A stretch of 64,000 bases of DNA, taken from Aquirufa ecclesiirivi. GTDB taxonomy: Bacteria; Bacteroidota; Bacteroidia; Cytophagales; Spirosomataceae. Positions 3,880 to 46,692 of the stretch are shown here, in pieces. Within the stretch, counting starts at the first letter, position 1. Every line of letters starts with the position of its first letter. Location of the stretch: positions 64,877-128,876 of the forward strand of contig NZ_JAANOP010000005.1 of the NCBI RefSeq assembly GCF_011250515.1, read 5' to 3'. The notes below the pieces were generated by a model. It did not search any database. It saw only the letters and a list, made by a program, of their open reading frames with translations, and was not told the DNA's origin. The position numbers and the translations under genes were made by a program.

Positions 3880-5745
3880 TTAGTCCCGATTAATCAGGGC
3901 ATCATTGGCTTTCTTTTGTGTTAAGCCGTTGATCCAAGAAGCAATTTTCAACACGTCTTTGGCTGGCACATGCGACATGGGAGCCATTTCCGTAGCAAAG
4001 TCTGGCCAGTTTTTAGGATTAGGCTTATAGACTAATGCCAAAATTTGCTTATCGCTGTATTTTCGTTTGGAAATATCCGTAAACGAAGGACCTATTAATT
4101 TTTCTTCCCTTGCATGGCAGGCCACACAGGTATGCTTCTTCAATAAAGCCATGGCCTCATTATCAGATATAAGCGTAGTTGTCTTAGTCTTTTCTAATTG
4201 AGAAACCTTTTTCTCAATGACCACTTTTTCTACAATCGGGTTGGTCGATGCATTTAAAACCACTTTATCTCCTGAAGGTATTTGATTTAAGGTATAATAG
4301 GCCGTTTCATGCAATAAAAGCTCGCCTGCCTCATTTTTCACCCCCGTCAATTTAAATTCATGGATGAAATATTGACGAATTTGATCCAAAACAATACGAA
4401 CTTTCTTTTTATCCGCAGAAACAACAATGCCTTTAATCGCCAAATCCTTCACATCAACGATCGGACTTCCGTATTGGTGATGGTATTTATAAATATAAGA
4501 TCTCAAAGCATAAGATGCCGCCTTTTTAACTGAGTTTACATCCACAGCCTGTGTAAAGCTAATTTCAAATCCATCCGTACGCGCCTCAATCATATTGATT
4601 TCAAATGGAGTTATTCCATTCCATACCAATCGTTGTAGGCCAAAATCATCTTTACCCGTTGAACCCCAACCTCTAGAAGTCATGCCCACGAACATACTTC
4701 CATCCAATCCAAAGCGCTCCCTCAAAATTCCCGACTGAAACCCTTCTCGGTAATTGATGCAGAAACCCTGATAAACACCATTCACTTTTTCTAAACCCAT
4801 GCGCATCACTTTAGACTGCCCTTGGTCTGCCACAAAATACTGGCCAGGGAATGGACTAAATTTACCTCCTGTCGTATCTTGTAGAATATCGGATGTCGAA
4901 ATACCCATGATAGCATGAGGAAACCAAACCGCTGGAAGCTTCAAGTTTTTTACTTTTTTAGCTGCTTCAAACATGGGTGAACCATTATCAGGAATTTCCT
5001 CCAAAGTTAGCTTAAAAGGGCTGTTGGGCTCTTTAGCCCATTTTAAACCTCCAGGATTTCCTGCAAAATCACCTTTAGCCAAATGTGTTACTCGACCCGA
5101 TCCAACCCAGTCGCCTTGATTTTCGCCATAAAAAATATCTCCCTCTTGATTGATACTATACCCTGCTGGAGAGCGTAAACCTGCCGCAAAAGGTTCTAGT
5201 TTGCCATCTGGACTAATCTTCACTAACCAACCTCGCCATTTAGAAAATTTACCTTCTCCAAAACCTACCCAAGCTAAATTCAGTGTAACCCACATATCTC
5301 CGTTCTTATCAAATACTGGGCCATAGGTATATTCATGGTAATTTCCAGAAAGTTGAAATTGATAAATCGGTTCATAACGATCGGCAACGCCATCCCGATC
5401 TGTATCTGTTACTTTGGTTAATTCTCCACGTTGTGAACAGTAAAATGCCCCATCTTTATAGGCTAAGCCTAAAATTTCATGCATTCCACTCGCAAATCGT
5501 CGATAATAGGTTTGGTGGCTATCTTTTTGATATGGATTATCAATAATCCAAATTTCTCCGCGACGGGTACTCACTCCCAAACGACCATCTGGCATGGTCG
5601 CTATACCTCCAATTTCTAAGTATATATCTTGTGGAATCGGCAAGGTTTTTATTTCATAAAAATCCTTTTCGGTTTTTGCTCCGGGATTTTGAGCCCAAGC
5701 TAAGCTTGAAATGAATAATAATAAGATGCTAACTGTATGTTTCAT
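3880..5745 (-). CDS. Secreted beta-propeller protein with C-terminal cytochrome c domain
   Basis: Exported protein of 621 residues with a signal peptide (MKHTVSILLLFISSLAWAQ). Residues about 40-400 look like the six-bladed propeller of the soluble sugar dehydrogenase/PVC-type heme-binding family (IATMPDGRLGVSTRRGEIW, AAGLRSPAG, PHAIMGISTSD). A c-type heme site CVACH is at 540-544, and Met587 or Met590 in EMAPMSH is the likely axial ligand. Expected location is the periplasm, with electrons leaving through the heme. Its start is 13 bases after the stop of the DUF1080 gene, so the two form one operon. DUF1080 proteins include 3-ketoglycoside hydrolases, so a role in oxidative glycoside breakdown is plausible, but this is inferred from the pairing. 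The substrate is unknown. Confidence 0.82.
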   Translation of the reverse strand: MKHTVSILLLFISSLAWAQNPGAKTEKDFYEIKTLPIPQDIYLEIGGIATMPDGRLGVSTRRGEIWIIDNPYQKDSHQTYYRRFASGMHEILGLAYKDGAFYCSQRGELTKVTDTDRDGVADRYEPIYQFQLSGNYHEYTYGPVFDKNGDMWVTLNLAWVGFGEGKFSKWRGWLVKISPDGKLEPFAAGLRSPAGYSINQEGDIFYGENQGDWVGSGRVTHLAKGDFAGNPGGLKWAKEPNSPFKLTLEEIPDNGSPMFEAAKKVKNLKLPAVWFPHAIMGISTSDILQDTTGGKFSPFPGQYFVADQGQSKVMRMGLEKVNGVYQGFCINYREGFQSGILRERFGLDGSMFVGMTSRGWGSTGKDDFGLQRLVWNGITPFEINMIEARTDGFEISFTQAVDVNSVKKAASYALRSYIYKYHHQYGSPIVDVKDLAIKGIVVSADKKKVRIVLDQIRQYFIHEFKLTGVKNEAGELLLHETAYYTLNQIPSGDKVVLNASTNPIVEKVVIEKKVSQLEKTKTTTLISDNEAMALLKKHTCVACHAREEKLIGPSFTDISKRKYSDKQILALVYKPNPKNWPDFATEMAPMSHVPAKDVLKIASWINGLTQKKANDALINRD

Positions 5746-13475: not shown

Positions 13476-13508
13476 AACGCTGTCAAGGTTTAAAACCTTG
13501 ACAGCGTT
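13476..13508. terminator. Long inverted repeat after rny, probable terminator
   Basis: Perfect 16-base arms (AACGCTGTCAAGGTTT and its complement) around a single A, followed by AGATTTTTA. It lies between rny and the GNAT gene and could end rny transcripts. It shares TTGACA and AGGTTT-type parts with the inverted repeat at 40489-40521, so it may also be a dispersed palindromic repeat. Confidence 0.7.
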
Positions 13509-14163: not shown

Positions 14164-14562
14164 ATGAACATGTCGGACTCGTTGATTCAAATTTATATAC
14201 ATGCAGTATGGGCAACAAAAAAAAGAGAACCATTTATTTTACCTGAATTAAAAGCCCCCTTATTTAAGCACATTGAGCAGGAGTTGGATAAAATGAATTG
14301 TCAGCTTCTCATCATCAATTCCATGCCAGATCACATTCATTGCCTATTTTCAATTTGCTCCACAAAATCAATTTCTTACATCATTAAACAGATAAAAGGT
14401 AGTAGTTCAAGGTTTATCAATTTACAATATTCCTTACCTACAAAACTGGAATGGCAGATTGGTTATGTGGCATTTTCAGTCTCAAAAGTGGCTTTGAATA
14501 AAGTATATAATTACATAAAATACCAACATGTTCGCCATGGATTTAAATCCATGGCTCATTAA
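14164..14562 (+). CDS. IS200-like Y1 transposase, RAYT (REP-associated) type
   Basis: HUH single-strand nuclease of 132 residues. The HUH motif is His57-Ile-His59 in MPDHIHCLF; the nucleophile is probably Tyr117 in YNYIKYQ, with Gln121 and His125 at the spacings usual for the family; FSVSK before it matches the conserved GAFSVS region. The family is usually about 150 residues with an acidic helix after the QxxxH motif. Here that helix is missing and the last seven residues (GFKSMAH) plus the stop are encoded by the first palindromic unit of the adjacent repeat array. So either the gene was trimmed when the repeat arrived, or the short form works. No flanking insertion-sequence ends or accessory gene are seen. 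RAYTs are known to act on REP palindromes, which fits the array. Confidence 0.85.
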   Translation: MNMSDSLIQIYIHAVWATKKREPFILPELKAPLFKHIEQELDKMNCQLLIINSMPDHIHCLFSICSTKSISYIIKQIKGSSSRFINLQYSLPTKLEWQIGYVAFSVSKVALNKVYNYIKYQHVRHGFKSMAH

Positions 14563-15211
14563 TAAAAAAGGCCGGGAGTTTAACTCCAAGAACAAAGTAC
14601 ACAATTAATTTATTCCAGCATGTTCGCCATGGATTTAAATCCATGGCTCATTAATAAAAAAGGCCGAGAGTTTAACACTCTCTGAATAAAGTACACAATT
14701 CATATATTCCAGCATGTTTGCCATGGATTTAAATCCATGGCTCATAAGAAAAAAAGGCCGAGAGTTTAACACTCTCTGAATAAAGCACATAGTTCATTTA
14801 TTCCAGCTTGTTCGCCATGGATTTAAATCCATGGCTCATAAATAAAAAAGGCCGGGAGTTTAACACTCTCTGAATAAAGCACACAGTTCATTTATTCCAG
14901 CTTGTTTGCCATGGATTTAAATCCATGGCTCATAAATAAAAAAGGCCGGGAGTTTGACACTCTCTGAATAAAGCACACAGTTCATTTATTCCAGCTTGTT
15001 CGCCATGGATTTAAATCCATGGCTGATAAATAAAAAAGGCCGGGAGTTTAACACTCTCTGAATAAAGCACACAGTTCTTTTATTCCAGCATGTTCGCCAT
15101 GGATTTAAATCCATGGCTCATAAATAAAAAAGGCCGGGAGTTTGACACTCTTTAAATAAAGAACAAAATTCATATGTGCCAACTTGTTCGCCATGGATTT
15201 AAATCCATGGC
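14534..15211. repeat. Eight-unit tandem palindromic array (REP/BIME-like), 94-base period
   Basis: A perfect 22-base palindrome with arms GCCATGGATTT occurs at 14534, 14626, 14720, 14814, 14908, 15002, 15096 and 15190: one spacing of 92 and six of 94. Each 94-base unit also has AATAAAAAAGGCCG, a second hairpin (GAGAGT ttaac ACTCTC or a variant), and a weaker inverted pair GAATAAA...TTTATTC. TGTTCG or TGTTTG precedes every palindrome. The units are 90% or more alike, implying recent tandem amplification. It fills nearly the whole 708-base gap between the transposase and bioB; I see no gene in it. Confidence 0.95.
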
Positions 15212-15225
15212 TGATAAATAAAAAA

Positions 15226-15247
15226 GGCCGGGATTTAAATCCCGGCC
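15226..15247 (-). terminator. bioB terminator, palindromic end of the array
   Basis: A perfect 22-base palindrome with arms GGCCGGGATTT lies 24 bases past the bioB stop. Read on the minus strand it is followed by TTTTTTATTTA, a textbook intrinsic terminator. It shares the ATTTAAAT core and the flanking AATAAAAAAGGCCG with the repeat units. Confidence 0.85.
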
Positions 15248-15270: not shown

Positions 15271-16290
15271 TTAATGCGTATGTTCCAACCCTTGCGCACT
15301 AGGTATCTGATTGAACTCAATACCTTGCTTCTTGGCATCCTTAAAAGCCTCTTTCGGTTTAATACTCAAAATCTGAAATAATTCAGCATCCGAATTAGCA
15401 TCTGGATTGGGTGTCGTCAATAATACATCTCCTGAAAATATCGAATTTGCTCCGGCCATAAAACAAAAAGCTTGACCTTCATAATTCAATTCCAATCTAC
15501 CTGCTGATAAACGAACCGCAGAACGAGGCATGATAATTCTAGCCGTAGCTATCACTCGAACCAATTCCCAAACTGAGGCTGTCTTTTGATTTTCAAACGG
15601 AGTCCCTTCTACTGGCACCAAATTGTTTACTGGAACAGATTCTGGGTGCTCTGGCAAATTGGCTAACGTCAATAACATCCCAATACGATCATCCACACTT
15701 TCTCCCATACCAATAATTCCACCTGAACATACCGAAATTTTTGCCTTACGAACATTTCCTAATGTCTCTAAACGATCATCATAGGTCCGCGTAGTAATCA
15801 CATCATCATAATACTCTTCACTCGTATCAATATTATGGTTATAAGCATATAATCCTGCTTCTTTTAATCGCTCAGCTTGTTGCTCGCTCAACATGCCCAA
15901 CGTACAACAAACCTCCATGCCAAGCGAATTCACCCCCTTTACCATGTCAATCACTTTATCAAAATCTGAATTATCTCTCACTTCTCTCCAAGCCGCACCC
16001 ATACAAAAACGAGAACTCCCATTTTCTTTAGCCCGCAATGCAGCTTCAATAACCTCATTGTAAGGTAGCAACTTGTGAACTTTCACATTGGTGTGGTAAC
16101 GAGCTGCCTGAGAACAATAGGAACAATCTTCTGGACAACCACCCGTTTTAATAGATAACAAAGTACTAATCTGCACTTCATTGGGATCATGATATTGGCG
16201 ATGTACAGTTGCCGCTTGATATACCAAGTCTAAAAATGGCTGATTAAAAATGGCCTCCACCTCGGCACGGGTCCAATTAGTACGAATCAT
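15271..16290 (-). CDS. bioB: Biotin synthase
   Basis: Radical SAM enzyme of 339 residues that inserts sulfur into dethiobiotin, the last step of biotin synthesis. The radical SAM cluster motif is Cys52-xxx-Cys56-xx-Cys59 in [12 protein letters not shown]; the auxiliary [2Fe-2S] ligands are represented by [16 protein letters not shown] and SVCSGG, and the arginine of RLSAGR is present. Length and motifs are fully normal. The ATG at 16290 is 49 bases after the sppA stop and has its own -7 box. No other bio genes are in the window. Confidence 0.97.
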
Positions 16291-22019: not shown

Positions 22020-22063
22020 AATTATAAGTTTACTGATAAAATTTTATCAGTAAACTTATAATT
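22020..22063. repeat. Perfect 44-base palindrome downstream of pheT
   Basis: Each half is 22 bases (left half begins AATTATAAGTTTACTG) with no loop and no mismatch. It is about 84% AT and lacks a T tract, so it is a poor intrinsic terminator. It starts 22 bases past the pheT stop. It could be a cruciform, an operator, a dispersed repeat or an RNA-level hairpin. Confidence 0.9.
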
Positions 22064-44562: not shown

Positions 44563-46692
44563 CTACTGAAGTTGAATTTGTAATAATAGATTTTTTCTGG
44601 TGGGACTTCCAGCTGGTACAGATTGACTGACCACCGTACCTAAACCATTGGCTTTCACTTTAAGTCCTCTATTTTCCAATGTGAAAATTGCGTCTCTTAA
44701 ATTCATCCCCACTACATTGGGAACGGTTTTGGCTGGAAAACTTAAAGGAGTGTTTTCCACCAATTGCTTATCCATTTTAAACTGTAACCAACTACCATCT
44801 TCTTCTACTTTGGGCAAACCAAAATTGGAATACAAAATGGATTGATCCATAGGATGAACCGTATGGCTCAAGGAGGCTTTGTTTAATGAATCAGGGATGG
44901 TACCTGCTAATTTACGATGCAACTTCATGTCGCGTAAATAAATATTATCTGAAATTTCCCTAAAAACAGGGGCTGTTACTTGCCTAGCATACGTGGCTTC
45001 CGCATGTCCTTGCGGATTATCAATCGATACTAAAATGGTGTATTTAGGTTTTTTAACAGGAAAATACCCAATAAACGAAGTATAATATTTACCTGGAATA
45101 TAACGCCCATTGATGATTCTCTGAGCAGTACCCGTTTTACCAGCTATTCCGTACGAAGTACCTTTAATGTTATTTGCGGTTCCTTTGGTCACGACTCCCT
45201 CCAGCATACTTTGAATTTTTTCTAGAGTCTTGGGCGAACATAAAGGAGTTTGATCTCTTACTTGACTGGCACGATAATCAATCACCACTTCATCTGCTCG
45301 GGTAGCTTTACTGACAATGATTGGCTGTACCCAGTAGCCATTATTGGCAATCGCATTGTAAAAGGATATTAGCTGCAAAGGAGAATACTGCGTAGAATAA
45401 CCTACCGAAGACCAAAGCAATTGAAAAGCATCCCATTTGGCAGGAACAGGGAAATTCGGCCTAGGATTAGGTTGAATTTGAAAATGTAATGACTCGATTA
45501 AATGAAACTTTCTCAAATAATCATAAAATTTGGCTGGCTTCGAGGCAAATACTTTTTTCATGAGCACCATGGTTCCTACGTTGGAAGAACTTTCGATCAC
45601 TTGGGCTACCGAAATGGTTCCCATGGGATGAGAATCCGACATGGTTCCATTGTAGTGATGGTATTTTCCATTTCCAGTTGAAACGGGCATATCCAAAGGC
45701 AAATCTGCCTCTTCTAACATGGCCATCATAGAGGGTAATTTGAAAACAGAGCCCGGGTCTCTTGCTTCTCGAATGGCGTAATTAAAGCTCTCTGAATATC
45801 CTGTGGGAGAATTCGCATTCTTAGATAAATTGGAAATGGCTTTAATTTCCCCGGTCGTTGTTTCCATCACAATCACTACCCCATAATCTCCTTCATAGGT
45901 GGTCATGGCTTTCATCAGTGCTGTTTCAACAATATCTTGTATGTTGATATCCAGAGTTGAATAGATATCCAAACCTGGCTTAGGAACAGATTCTTCTCCT
46001 CCTTCTACTGGTCGCCAAGTATTTTTATCCATCTTTTCAAATAGCCCTTTACCCGGTGTTCCTTTCAACTCTGCATTAAAACTTCCTTCAATACCTACCG
46101 CTACTTTATCTTTTAAATAACCCACAGTACGGTAAGCCATTTGCCCGAAAGGAGCATAGCGTACATTAACTTTATCAAAAACAATCCCCGTTTTAGTGGC
46201 TTCGCCTAAATTAAATAAAGGAAACTTGGCGACTTTCTTGCGCTCTTGAAAATCGAGTAAACGGTTGTTTAGTAGTAAGTAGTTTTTACCATTCTTTTTC
46301 GCAGAAACAATCTTATTCTTGTATTCTTCTGCCGTATGATCCTGAAAAAAATTCGCTAATGCATTGGCTAGCTCATCGATATGCTCCTTAAATTTTTGCT
46401 CTGAGGTGGCATTTCGATTGTACACTGAAGGATCAAGACCGAGCCGGTATTTAGGCAAAGATGTGGCCAATAAACTACCATCATCCGAATAAATGTTACC
46501 ACGGGTTGCATCTACACTTCTTTCTTTGATGTAGGTATTGAATACGTCATTTCGCAAGGTGTCGCCATTGATAAAAACGATCTTATATAAATTGAAAACC
46601 AACACGACAAAGAGCATGATCACCACAACGAAAAAGAGGATGAAACGCTTCGTGATAATCTCGCGTATATTTTGTCTTTTTACCTTTGCCAT
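44563..46692 (-). CDS. ftsI: Peptidoglycan transpeptidase FtsI-type PBP with PASTA domain
   Basis: 709-residue class B penicillin-binding protein for septal wall synthesis. One membrane anchor at about 18-40, dimerisation domain, transpeptidase with nucleophile Ser315 and Lys318 (SVFK), Ser-Ser-Asn at 369-371, and KTGT at 519-522. A single PASTA domain ends the protein at about 655-709 (VPNVVGMNLRDAIFTLENRG), which is common in Bacteroidota and Gram-positives but absent in E. coli FtsI. Follows the FtsL-like gene by 3 bases. Confidence 0.95.
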   Translation of the reverse strand: MAKVKRQNIREIITKRFILFFVVVIMLFVVLVFNLYKIVFINGDTLRNDVFNTYIKERSVDATRGNIYSDDGSLLATSLPKYRLGLDPSVYNRNATSEQKFKEHIDELANALANFFQDHTAEEYKNKIVSAKKNGKNYLLLNNRLLDFQERKKVAKFPLFNLGEATKTGIVFDKVNVRYAPFGQMAYRTVGYLKDKVAVGIEGSFNAELKGTPGKGLFEKMDKNTWRPVEGGEESVPKPGLDIYSTLDINIQDIVETALMKAMTTYEGDYGVVIVMETTTGEIKAISNLSKNANSPTGYSESFNYAIREARDPGSVFKLPSMMAMLEEADLPLDMPVSTGNGKYHHYNGTMSDSHPMGTISVAQVIESSSNVGTMVLMKKVFASKPAKFYDYLRKFHLIESLHFQIQPNPRPNFPVPAKWDAFQLLWSSVGYSTQYSPLQLISFYNAIANNGYWVQPIIVSKATRADEVVIDYRASQVRDQTPLCSPKTLEKIQSMLEGVVTKGTANNIKGTSYGIAGKTGTAQRIINGRYIPGKYYTSFIGYFPVKKPKYTILVSIDNPQGHAEATYARQVTAPVFREISDNIYLRDMKLHRKLAGTIPDSLNKASLSHTVHPMDQSILYSNFGLPKVEEDGSWLQFKMDKQLVENTPLSFPAKTVPNVVGMNLRDAIFTLENRGLKVKANGLGTVVSQSVPAGSPTRKNLLLQIQLQ

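Follow-up and report, generated by a model that had tools for sequence, protein, structure and literature searches.

Tandem palindromes beside a subclass-1.2-like Y1/HUH transposase gene in Aquirufa ecclesiirivi and their probable kinship with a REP-like hairpin family of Bacteroidota

The window analyzed here is a 64,000-nucleotide stretch of the Aquirufa ecclesiirivi genome (RefSeq assembly GCF_011250515.1, contig NZ_JAANOP010000005.1, positions 64,877 to 128,876 of the forward strand), in which a gene for a small Y1/HUH transposase runs into eight copies of a perfect 22-base palindrome, spaced at regular intervals. This array is best understood as a member, amplified and in part decayed, of a family of hairpins, resembling repetitive extragenic palindromes (REPs), that accompanies the transposases (TnpA) of subclass 1.2 in Bacteroidota. 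Judging from sequence comparisons, we consider it probable that the array arose by tandem amplification of a REP-like hairpin belonging to the neighboring single-copy subclass-1.2 nuclease, which would bind and cut it.

The eight palindromes of sequence GCCATGGATTTAAATCCATGGC (P1; Table 1), which a first-pass annotation of this DNA had reported at 92/94-base spacing, were confirmed by a palindrome scan and by Tandem Repeats Finder (TRF), the latter with 92% matches; the spacing is 92 bases once and then 94 bases six times. The window contains ten perfect 22-nt palindromes, nine of them within the array stretch, and 20 mononucleotide shuffles of the window gave one in total. The ninth palindrome of the array differs from P1 and reads GGCCGGGATTTAAATCCCGGCC (P2); the tenth of the window, at 22031, stands apart. 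The second hairpin, the GAATAAA/TTTATTC pair and the AAAAAAGGCCG element that had also been described are all present, and vary between units: unit 1 is two bases shorter than the others, unit 7 has an ACTCTTT variant, and in unit 8 the intact palindrome P2 replaces the second hairpin. In units 1-7 the second hairpin (GGGAGTTTAACACTCTC or a variant of it) occupies the place that P2 holds in the last unit and looks like a decayed P2 copy, so that one unit appears to comprise P1, a spacer, a decayed P2 copy and about 35 bases. Folded as RNA, the array stretch scores z = -14 against 20 shuffles. The P1 units of the window share one orientation, as judged by their flanks, and the inverse pairing of bacterial interspersed mosaic elements (BIMEs) or of REPINs is not seen among them. 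When the 738-base array was used as a DNA query, the array as a whole had no second match in this genome; elsewhere there were short matches only, the best of which were palindromes. An Rfam scan of the window gave 0 matches at gathering thresholds, and promoter-like sites between 13900 and 15400 show no excess (5, against a shuffle mean of 6.8).

Units 4-6 differ from one another at 2-4 of 94 bases, and unit 7 differs from units 2-6 at 10-14. Recent tandem growth, as previously suggested, is borne out by the first of these figures; since units 4-6 are near-identical, unit 7 divergent and unit 1 shorter, that growth would have taken place in the middle of the array. The copy number is read from an assembly, in which collapse or expansion could shift it. 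Short near-identical repeats in a 36-contig assembly for which there were no reads are what an artefact of copy number would call for, but the units carry distinct substitutions and independent assemblies give different numbers at the same site, and we regard an artefact as very improbable indeed.

The transposase carries the motifs DHIH, WQ and YIKYQHVRH. Because its open reading frame (ORF) ends inside the stretch of the first palindrome, the array starts within the gene, and the protein ends in HGFKSMAH*, codons largely supplied by the first palindrome together with its flanking bases. The protein had been taken for a REP-associated tyrosine transposase (RAYT), an assignment that we revise. 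It scores 71.2 bits with the NCBIfam IS200 model (cut-off 55) and 45.8 bits with the REP_Tyr_transpos model, below the cut-off of 80, and its Y motif is YIKYQ, not the YxxNP of class-2 TnpA_REP/RAYT proteins. An AlphaFold (AF2) model (predicted local distance difference test score, pLDDT, 88) was compared with solved structures by Foldseek, giving E-values of about 1e-10 for the TnpA proteins of ISDra2 and IS608 and of 6e-7 for the REP transposase 4er8; TM-scores to the query are alike across the three (0.66-0.72), so the fold alone cannot separate the classes.

A better match is offered by subclass 1.2 of TnpA_Y1, described by Quentin et al. (2018; PMC6006769) as having the signature DH[IV]H, WQ and Y---Q--HH, low copy number, occurrence in Bacteroidetes and Cyanobacteria, and generally none of the typical IS200 terminal structures. 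Among 79 relatives from named genomes (80 loci, with the frameshifted L098 left out and 4 of the 79 having in-frame stops), DH[IV]H was found in 77, WQ in 78 and Y---Q--HH in 71. The window protein agrees in DHIH and WQ, with RH where the signature has HH; on these features of sequence it fits a subclass-1.2-like protein of the IS200 branch rather than a class-2 RAYT. We know of no biochemistry on subclass 1.2. Two further Y1 proteins in the same genome (G000:C36:75937 and 78103, 178-codon frames) are weaker matches and probably belong to another subclass.

To see how often such genes stand beside palindromes, we used the best 80 loci of at least 592 pattern matches (at least 582 of them confirmed relatives) and searched the 250 bp on each side of the gene for perfect palindromes (arms of at least 9 with four or more G/C each, loop of at most 2). 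Among loci with enough flank, a palindrome was present upstream in 43/76, downstream in 52/78, on either side in 68/74 and on both sides in 23/74, compared with 10 of 1070 equally long control windows taken from the same loci no closer than 800 bp. The link between a Y1/HUH nuclease gene and REP-like palindromes that had been surmised for the window therefore holds in many genera. A typical gene-side palindrome is CCCACGGTTTAAACCGTGGG. Many of these genes (e.g., L137, L149) also have a further small palindrome beside them, AAACCGTTTTAACGGTTT, about 30-50 bp away from the main palindrome. Core types cluster on the transposase tree (31 changes against 43.5 in shuffles, 0/200 as low, all labels), although 43/76 inner branches of that poorly resolved tree are open and entire loci are shared between near relatives; the clustering rests on GTTTAAAC and GTTGAAAC, whereas GTTAAAAC is not clustered (107/500).

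The palindromes have a marked polarity. Within 600 bp of tnpA, 171 even-centered perfect palindromes (the only kind counted) have the center TTAA in 69 cases, TTCA/TTTA or their complements in 101, and another in 1. On the TT[C/T]A strand of the 101 asymmetric ones, the tetranucleotide directly 5' of the 10-bp stem is ATAG 57 times and GTAG 6 times; the opposite strand has ATAG 2 times, GTAG 0 and CGTC 3. Counted once per locus (n = 38), ATAG is found in 18 and GTAG in 4, and the far-side measure, GCTA, gives 62 versus 1 of 101, or 23 versus 1 of 38 with one per locus. Asymmetric neighbors within 130 bp lie in opposite orientation in 46/53 pairs, a BIME-like pairing found outside the window. 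Given the tag polarity, the dispersal and the inverted neighbor pairs, the family has the hallmarks of REPs and BIMEs, ATAG taking the place of GTAG: short palindromes in several dispersed copies, at least one of them near the cognate gene, with a 5' tag that is mostly not the GTAG/GTGG of known REPs (GTAG/GTGG in 6 of 101).

These features invite comparison with the REPtron, that is, class-2 TnpA_REP with its GTAG/GTGG REPs and BIMEs/REPINs. Both have a low-copy Y1/HUH gene with adjoining and dispersed palindromes, a 5' tag, strand polarity and inverted pairs, and the loop TTNA found here is the one that the Marinomonas TnpA_REP requires according to systematic evolution of ligands by exponential enrichment (SELEX) and mutation (PMC8266576; the enzymes assayed were from E. 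coli, Stenotrophomonas and Marinomonas). Unlike in the REPtron, the protein is on the IS200 branch with a motif of the Y---Q--HH type in place of Y---NP, the tag is mostly ATAG, the palindromes are perfect and have no built-in loop, and the window units run head to tail instead of inverted. Like BIME-2 (PMC2817692), the array is a tandem run of REP-bearing units, but BIME units hold opposite REPs and those of the window are all in one orientation. The long regular array had been called less ordinary, a remark that calls for caution, since tandem reiteration of REPs together with flanking DNA has been described for GTAG families (BMC Genomics 2013, 14:522; PMC3733652); the tandem form itself is already known and is not new. 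The same paper reports CGTC-tagged repeats from Bacteroidetes, from which the present family differs in its ATAG tag (57/101, with CGTC at 3/101 and on the other strand), and its main text contains none of the six Bacteroidota genus names looked for. Table 1 of Quentin et al. (PMC6006769) gives "no" under REP for subclass 1.2, and its REP search applied a GTAG/GTGG rule in TnpA_REP-encoding genomes, a rule that would miss most of the palindromes described here. In DH[IV]H, WQ, low copy number and occurrence in Bacteroidetes, and for most relatives in Y---Q--HH, the present proteins agree with that subclass; the palindromes at 68/74 loci speak against the published no-REP listing, not against the class of the protein.

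An IS200 relationship also raises the possibility that the palindromes are not REPs but the ends of a decayed IS200-type insertion sequence. The protein is on that branch, with IS608 and ISDra2 as the closest solved structures by sequence and Foldseek E-value and with hairpin recognition as a presumed shared trait, and 23 of the 74 loci have palindromes on both sides of the gene. Unlike IS200/IS605 transposons, however, which have several near-identical gene-bearing copies per genome, each of five transposase-bearing Aquirufa species has a single copy (interrupted in one and reported as two pieces), at one orthologous place; hairpins lie far from any copy of the gene, and they form BIME-like inverted pairs. 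We consider decayed insertion sequence ends improbable and prefer to view the palindromes as REP-like.

The genome-wide count was made with the pattern CCNNGGTTNNAACCNNGG and covered 50 of the 80 loci, in 49 named carrier genomes. It gave 360 copies in 38/49 of them, versus 4 copies in 4 genomes for the reversed control; in several of the 11 pattern-free genomes the gene adjoins palindromes whose cores or stems are different. In a sample of the class, 67/296 genomes hold the pattern (Fisher p = 1.8e-13 against the named set, which is not a random sample). Co-occurrence across the class with a loose A1 profile (157/296 genomes) was set aside as uninformative, given that the profile likely catches other Y1 classes too; at an A1 cut of E <= 1e-53, chosen after seeing the table, the pattern occurs in 11/14 genomes versus 56/282 others. 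We also picked 40 regions among the genome-wide matches listed, in seven genomes, with some next to a gene copy left out; two of the seven, G296 and G127, have a transposase that matches less well even at best (about 1e-44 and 1e-41), and its membership in the subclass is tentative. Of the matches so listed, 5/40 regions had no palindrome by the script rule, and at 28 asymmetric copies GCTA[TC] stood on the expected side only in 18, the wrong side only in 2, both in 1 and neither in 7.

Within the genus, 37 Aquirufa genomes were compared, including the source genome (G000), and the transposase was found in 5/37 (G000, G016, G018, G021 and G025). The core GGATTTAAATCC occurs 25, 11, 6, 8 and 8 times in these carriers, respectively, and 0-4 times in the other 32 genomes (Mann-Whitney p = 1.3e-4, kinship ignored). 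Single GGATTTAAATCC matches at C11 and C31 (270716) were dropped as REP candidates, as they are inside long ORFs and were not extended by the palindrome scan.

Two orthologous sites could be followed between species. At site A, the 3' side of bioB, for which loci were available in 30/38 genomes, P2-type and P1-type palindromes are present in 5/5 carriers and 0/25 non-carriers (two of the latter with only 30 and 136 bases visible), and the nearest non-carrier, G005 (bioB 96% identical, genome 99% complete), has an ordinary terminator there. P1 copies at this site number 8 in G000, 5 in G016, 2 in G025 and 1 each in G018 and G021. At site B, on another contig beside a 480-aa gene, palindromes are present in 4/5 carriers and 0/25 non-carriers (in three of which 18, 82 and 264 bases could be seen). 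Looking for the 94-base unit elsewhere, as had been suggested, gave a divided answer: palindromes of its family are found at site A in all four other transposase-bearing species, at site B in three of them and in three more arrays of this genome; the exact unit was found at this locus only. In the site B intergenic region, ATCTATTTAACATAATATAAATTATATAACA is near-unchanged in the six species whose region was read (L021, L194, L200, L206, L242, L245), whether carriers or not.

The three further arrays of this genome are built of 56-bp units at C36, 73-bp units at C33 and 67/68-bp units at C31 (at least 15 palindromes), and spacers and unit lengths differ from site to site. At C36 the two arms of the stems change together (CCTAGG, CCCGGG, CCTTGG, CCTGGG; 7/9 perfect). 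In this array (L021:4509-5056) the spacers are near-identical while the stems change, as if one arm had been copied from the other. G016:C2 has an array of CCGAGATTAAAATCTCGG at 47/48-bp spacing (L195, about 4900-5110) that, unlike the other Aquirufa arrays, lies between divergent ORFs.

Such arrays could also grow passively, by replication slippage or unequal exchange between the 94-base direct repeats, so that the hairpins would be REP-like and the nuclease would have no role in their multiplication. Unequal exchange between direct repeats gives what the window shows, inner units 4-6 most alike and unit 7 at 10-14 differences from units 2-6; spacer and unit length are peculiar to each site; and G025 has a 4 x 100-bp array despite its frameshifted gene. 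The state of the enzyme points the other way. G000 and G016, in which HUH and frame are intact, hold the longest arrays (at least 5 units), and arrays are of at most 4 units in G018 and G021, where the first HUH histidine is changed to arginine (in G018 together with a Q-to-I change of the Y motif), and in G025, where the HUH residues are still readable; this comparison covers five related species with some sites read in each. We regard passive growth as a serious contender, if not quite the one that we would choose. For growth driven by the nuclease, the carriers' 1, 1, 2, 5 and 8 units at a single site, some with HUH preserved and others with it lost, offer a natural series in which to ask the question.

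Several observations weigh against the view that the hairpins belong to the nuclease. The hairpins are kept in G018, G021 and G025 in spite of the lesions just described. The transposase was not detected in G011, G003 and G023 (metagenome-assembled genomes, MAGs, 84, 71 and 86% complete), which have 19, 7 and 5 pattern matches in a count that covered 23 of 36 congeners. Among the matches listed, those of G011 and G023 (L193, L207, L208) include CCCAGGTTAAAACCTGGG-type palindromes, with tags CTAA, ATAA, TTAG and ATAA at the four copies whose flanks were read; G003 is represented by its count only. The palindromes of these MAGs are possibly relics of a lost system. The same pattern matches only 1 time in carrier G021 and 4 times in carrier G018, and is therefore no clean measure within Aquirufa. 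In the class sample, the reversed control occurs in about 50/296 genomes (counted by eye), and many of the 67 matches are thus chance. As for the window itself, polarity is unreadable at P1 because the loop TTAA is symmetric; the orientation was set by homology to G016, whose asymmetric site-A copies of P1 precede CTAT, CTAG or CTGG on the expected side. On that basis TGAG (6/8) and TCAG (2/8) on the minus strand, in the place of ATAG, are more likely tags than the TGTTCG/TGTTTG first proposed, and keep only the final AG of ATAG. Moreover, as the five carriers are close relatives, the contrast at sites A and B may reflect one evolutionary event. Finally, Aquirufa sites A-E (A-D in G000, E in G025) lie between convergent ORFs, as terminators would.

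This last point leads to the alternative in which the palindromes are bidirectional intrinsic terminators at convergent gene ends, tandemly duplicated, with the transposase as a bystander. P2 is terminator-like by pattern: a terminator scan calls it in either direction, the T tail being longer on minus and weaker on plus, and each of the five transposase-bearing species has a P2-type palindrome in this position. We think it likely, on this pattern, that P2 is the intrinsic terminator of bioB. The scan gave no match at the P1 hairpins; the termination role foreseen for the array is retained, by pattern, for its last hairpin. Site C hairpins in G018 and G021 run into T tracts, and in G018 site B shows a palindrome in the place of the ordinary terminator, which was not seen. 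However, G000, G016 and G021 have a host terminator at site B distinct from the palindromes, and in G025 and G005 it stands alone; the G016:C2 array is between divergent ORFs; palindromes flank the transposase gene on either side in many genera; and the strand-specific ATAG tag and the loop rule would be left unexplained. Terminators alone therefore seem to us an unlikely origin, and kinship with the nuclease the better one.

In Bacteroidota, subclass-1.2 genes are thus usually accompanied by palindromes with a 5' tag (mostly ATAG), a stem of ~10 bp and the loop TT[A/C/T]A on one strand. By analogy with class-2 TnpA_REP acting on GTAG-tagged REPs, the nuclease probably binds the hairpin as single-stranded DNA and cuts beside it. 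In the Aquirufa lineage the hairpins would have settled mainly at convergent gene ends, where some may double as terminators, and at the window locus a unit of P1, the P2 copy and about 35 bases would have been multiplied head to tail to eight. More speculatively, and with doubts that outweigh our confidence, subclass 1.2 might constitute a second REP system, domesticated on the IS200 branch across Bacteroidota with its own ATAG-tagged, TT[A/C/T]A-looped hairpins in parallel to the class-2 RAYT/REP system, in which the intact nuclease lengthens Aquirufa arrays, mostly at convergent 3' ends, and rewrites terminators. The literature searched, which did not extend to subscription papers and bioRxiv, showed no description, among the matches listed, of a link between subclass 1.2 and hairpins and contained no instance of the core string ACGGTTTAAACCGT. 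The proposal bears on how REPs arose and on what domesticated single-strand transposases do. If it is true, a subclass hitherto entered as REP-free would gain a REP-like partner, the system would reach further within a major phylum, and tag and loop rules would become comparable between two branches of the enzyme family.

Table 1. Positions of the transposase gene, the palindrome array and bioB in the window
Feature	Position	Strand	Basis or remark
Y1/HUH transposase, 132 aa	14164..14562	+	Pfam Y1_Tnp 2.8e-25
Whole tandem array	14523..15238		TRF, period 94
P1 unit 1	14534..14555		inside 3' end of transposase ORF
P1 unit 2	14626..14647		
P1 unit 3	14720..14741		
P1 unit 4	14814..14835		
P1 unit 5	14908..14929		
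P1 unit 6	15002..15023		
P1 unit 7	15096..15117		
P1 unit 8	15190..15211		
Second hairpin, unit 1	14575..14587		terminator scan; putative descent from P2
Second hairpin, units 2, 3	14666-14682, 14760-14776		terminator scan
Second hairpin, units 4-7	14854-14870, 14948-14964, 15042-15058, 15136-15152		by unit offset
P2, GGCCGGGATTTAAATCCCGGCC, then TTTTTTATTT on minus strand	15226..15247	-	candidate bioB terminator, about 23 bases past stop
bioB, convergent neighbor	15271..16290	-	NCBIfam TIGR00433 398.6 bits

Other repeats were seen in the window. A 33-nt palindrome, AACGCTGTCAAGGTTTAAAACCTTGACAGCGTT (13476-13508), is located between a GNAT ORF and a 525-aa ORF that we take to encode RNase Y. 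The four other carriers have a copy or near-copy of it upstream of the transposase; G005, which is transposase-free, has one as well, variants occur in a few others, and we therefore view it as independent of the transposase. TRF also found 84-bp and 24-bp tandem repeats, at 1-240 and 46598-46643.
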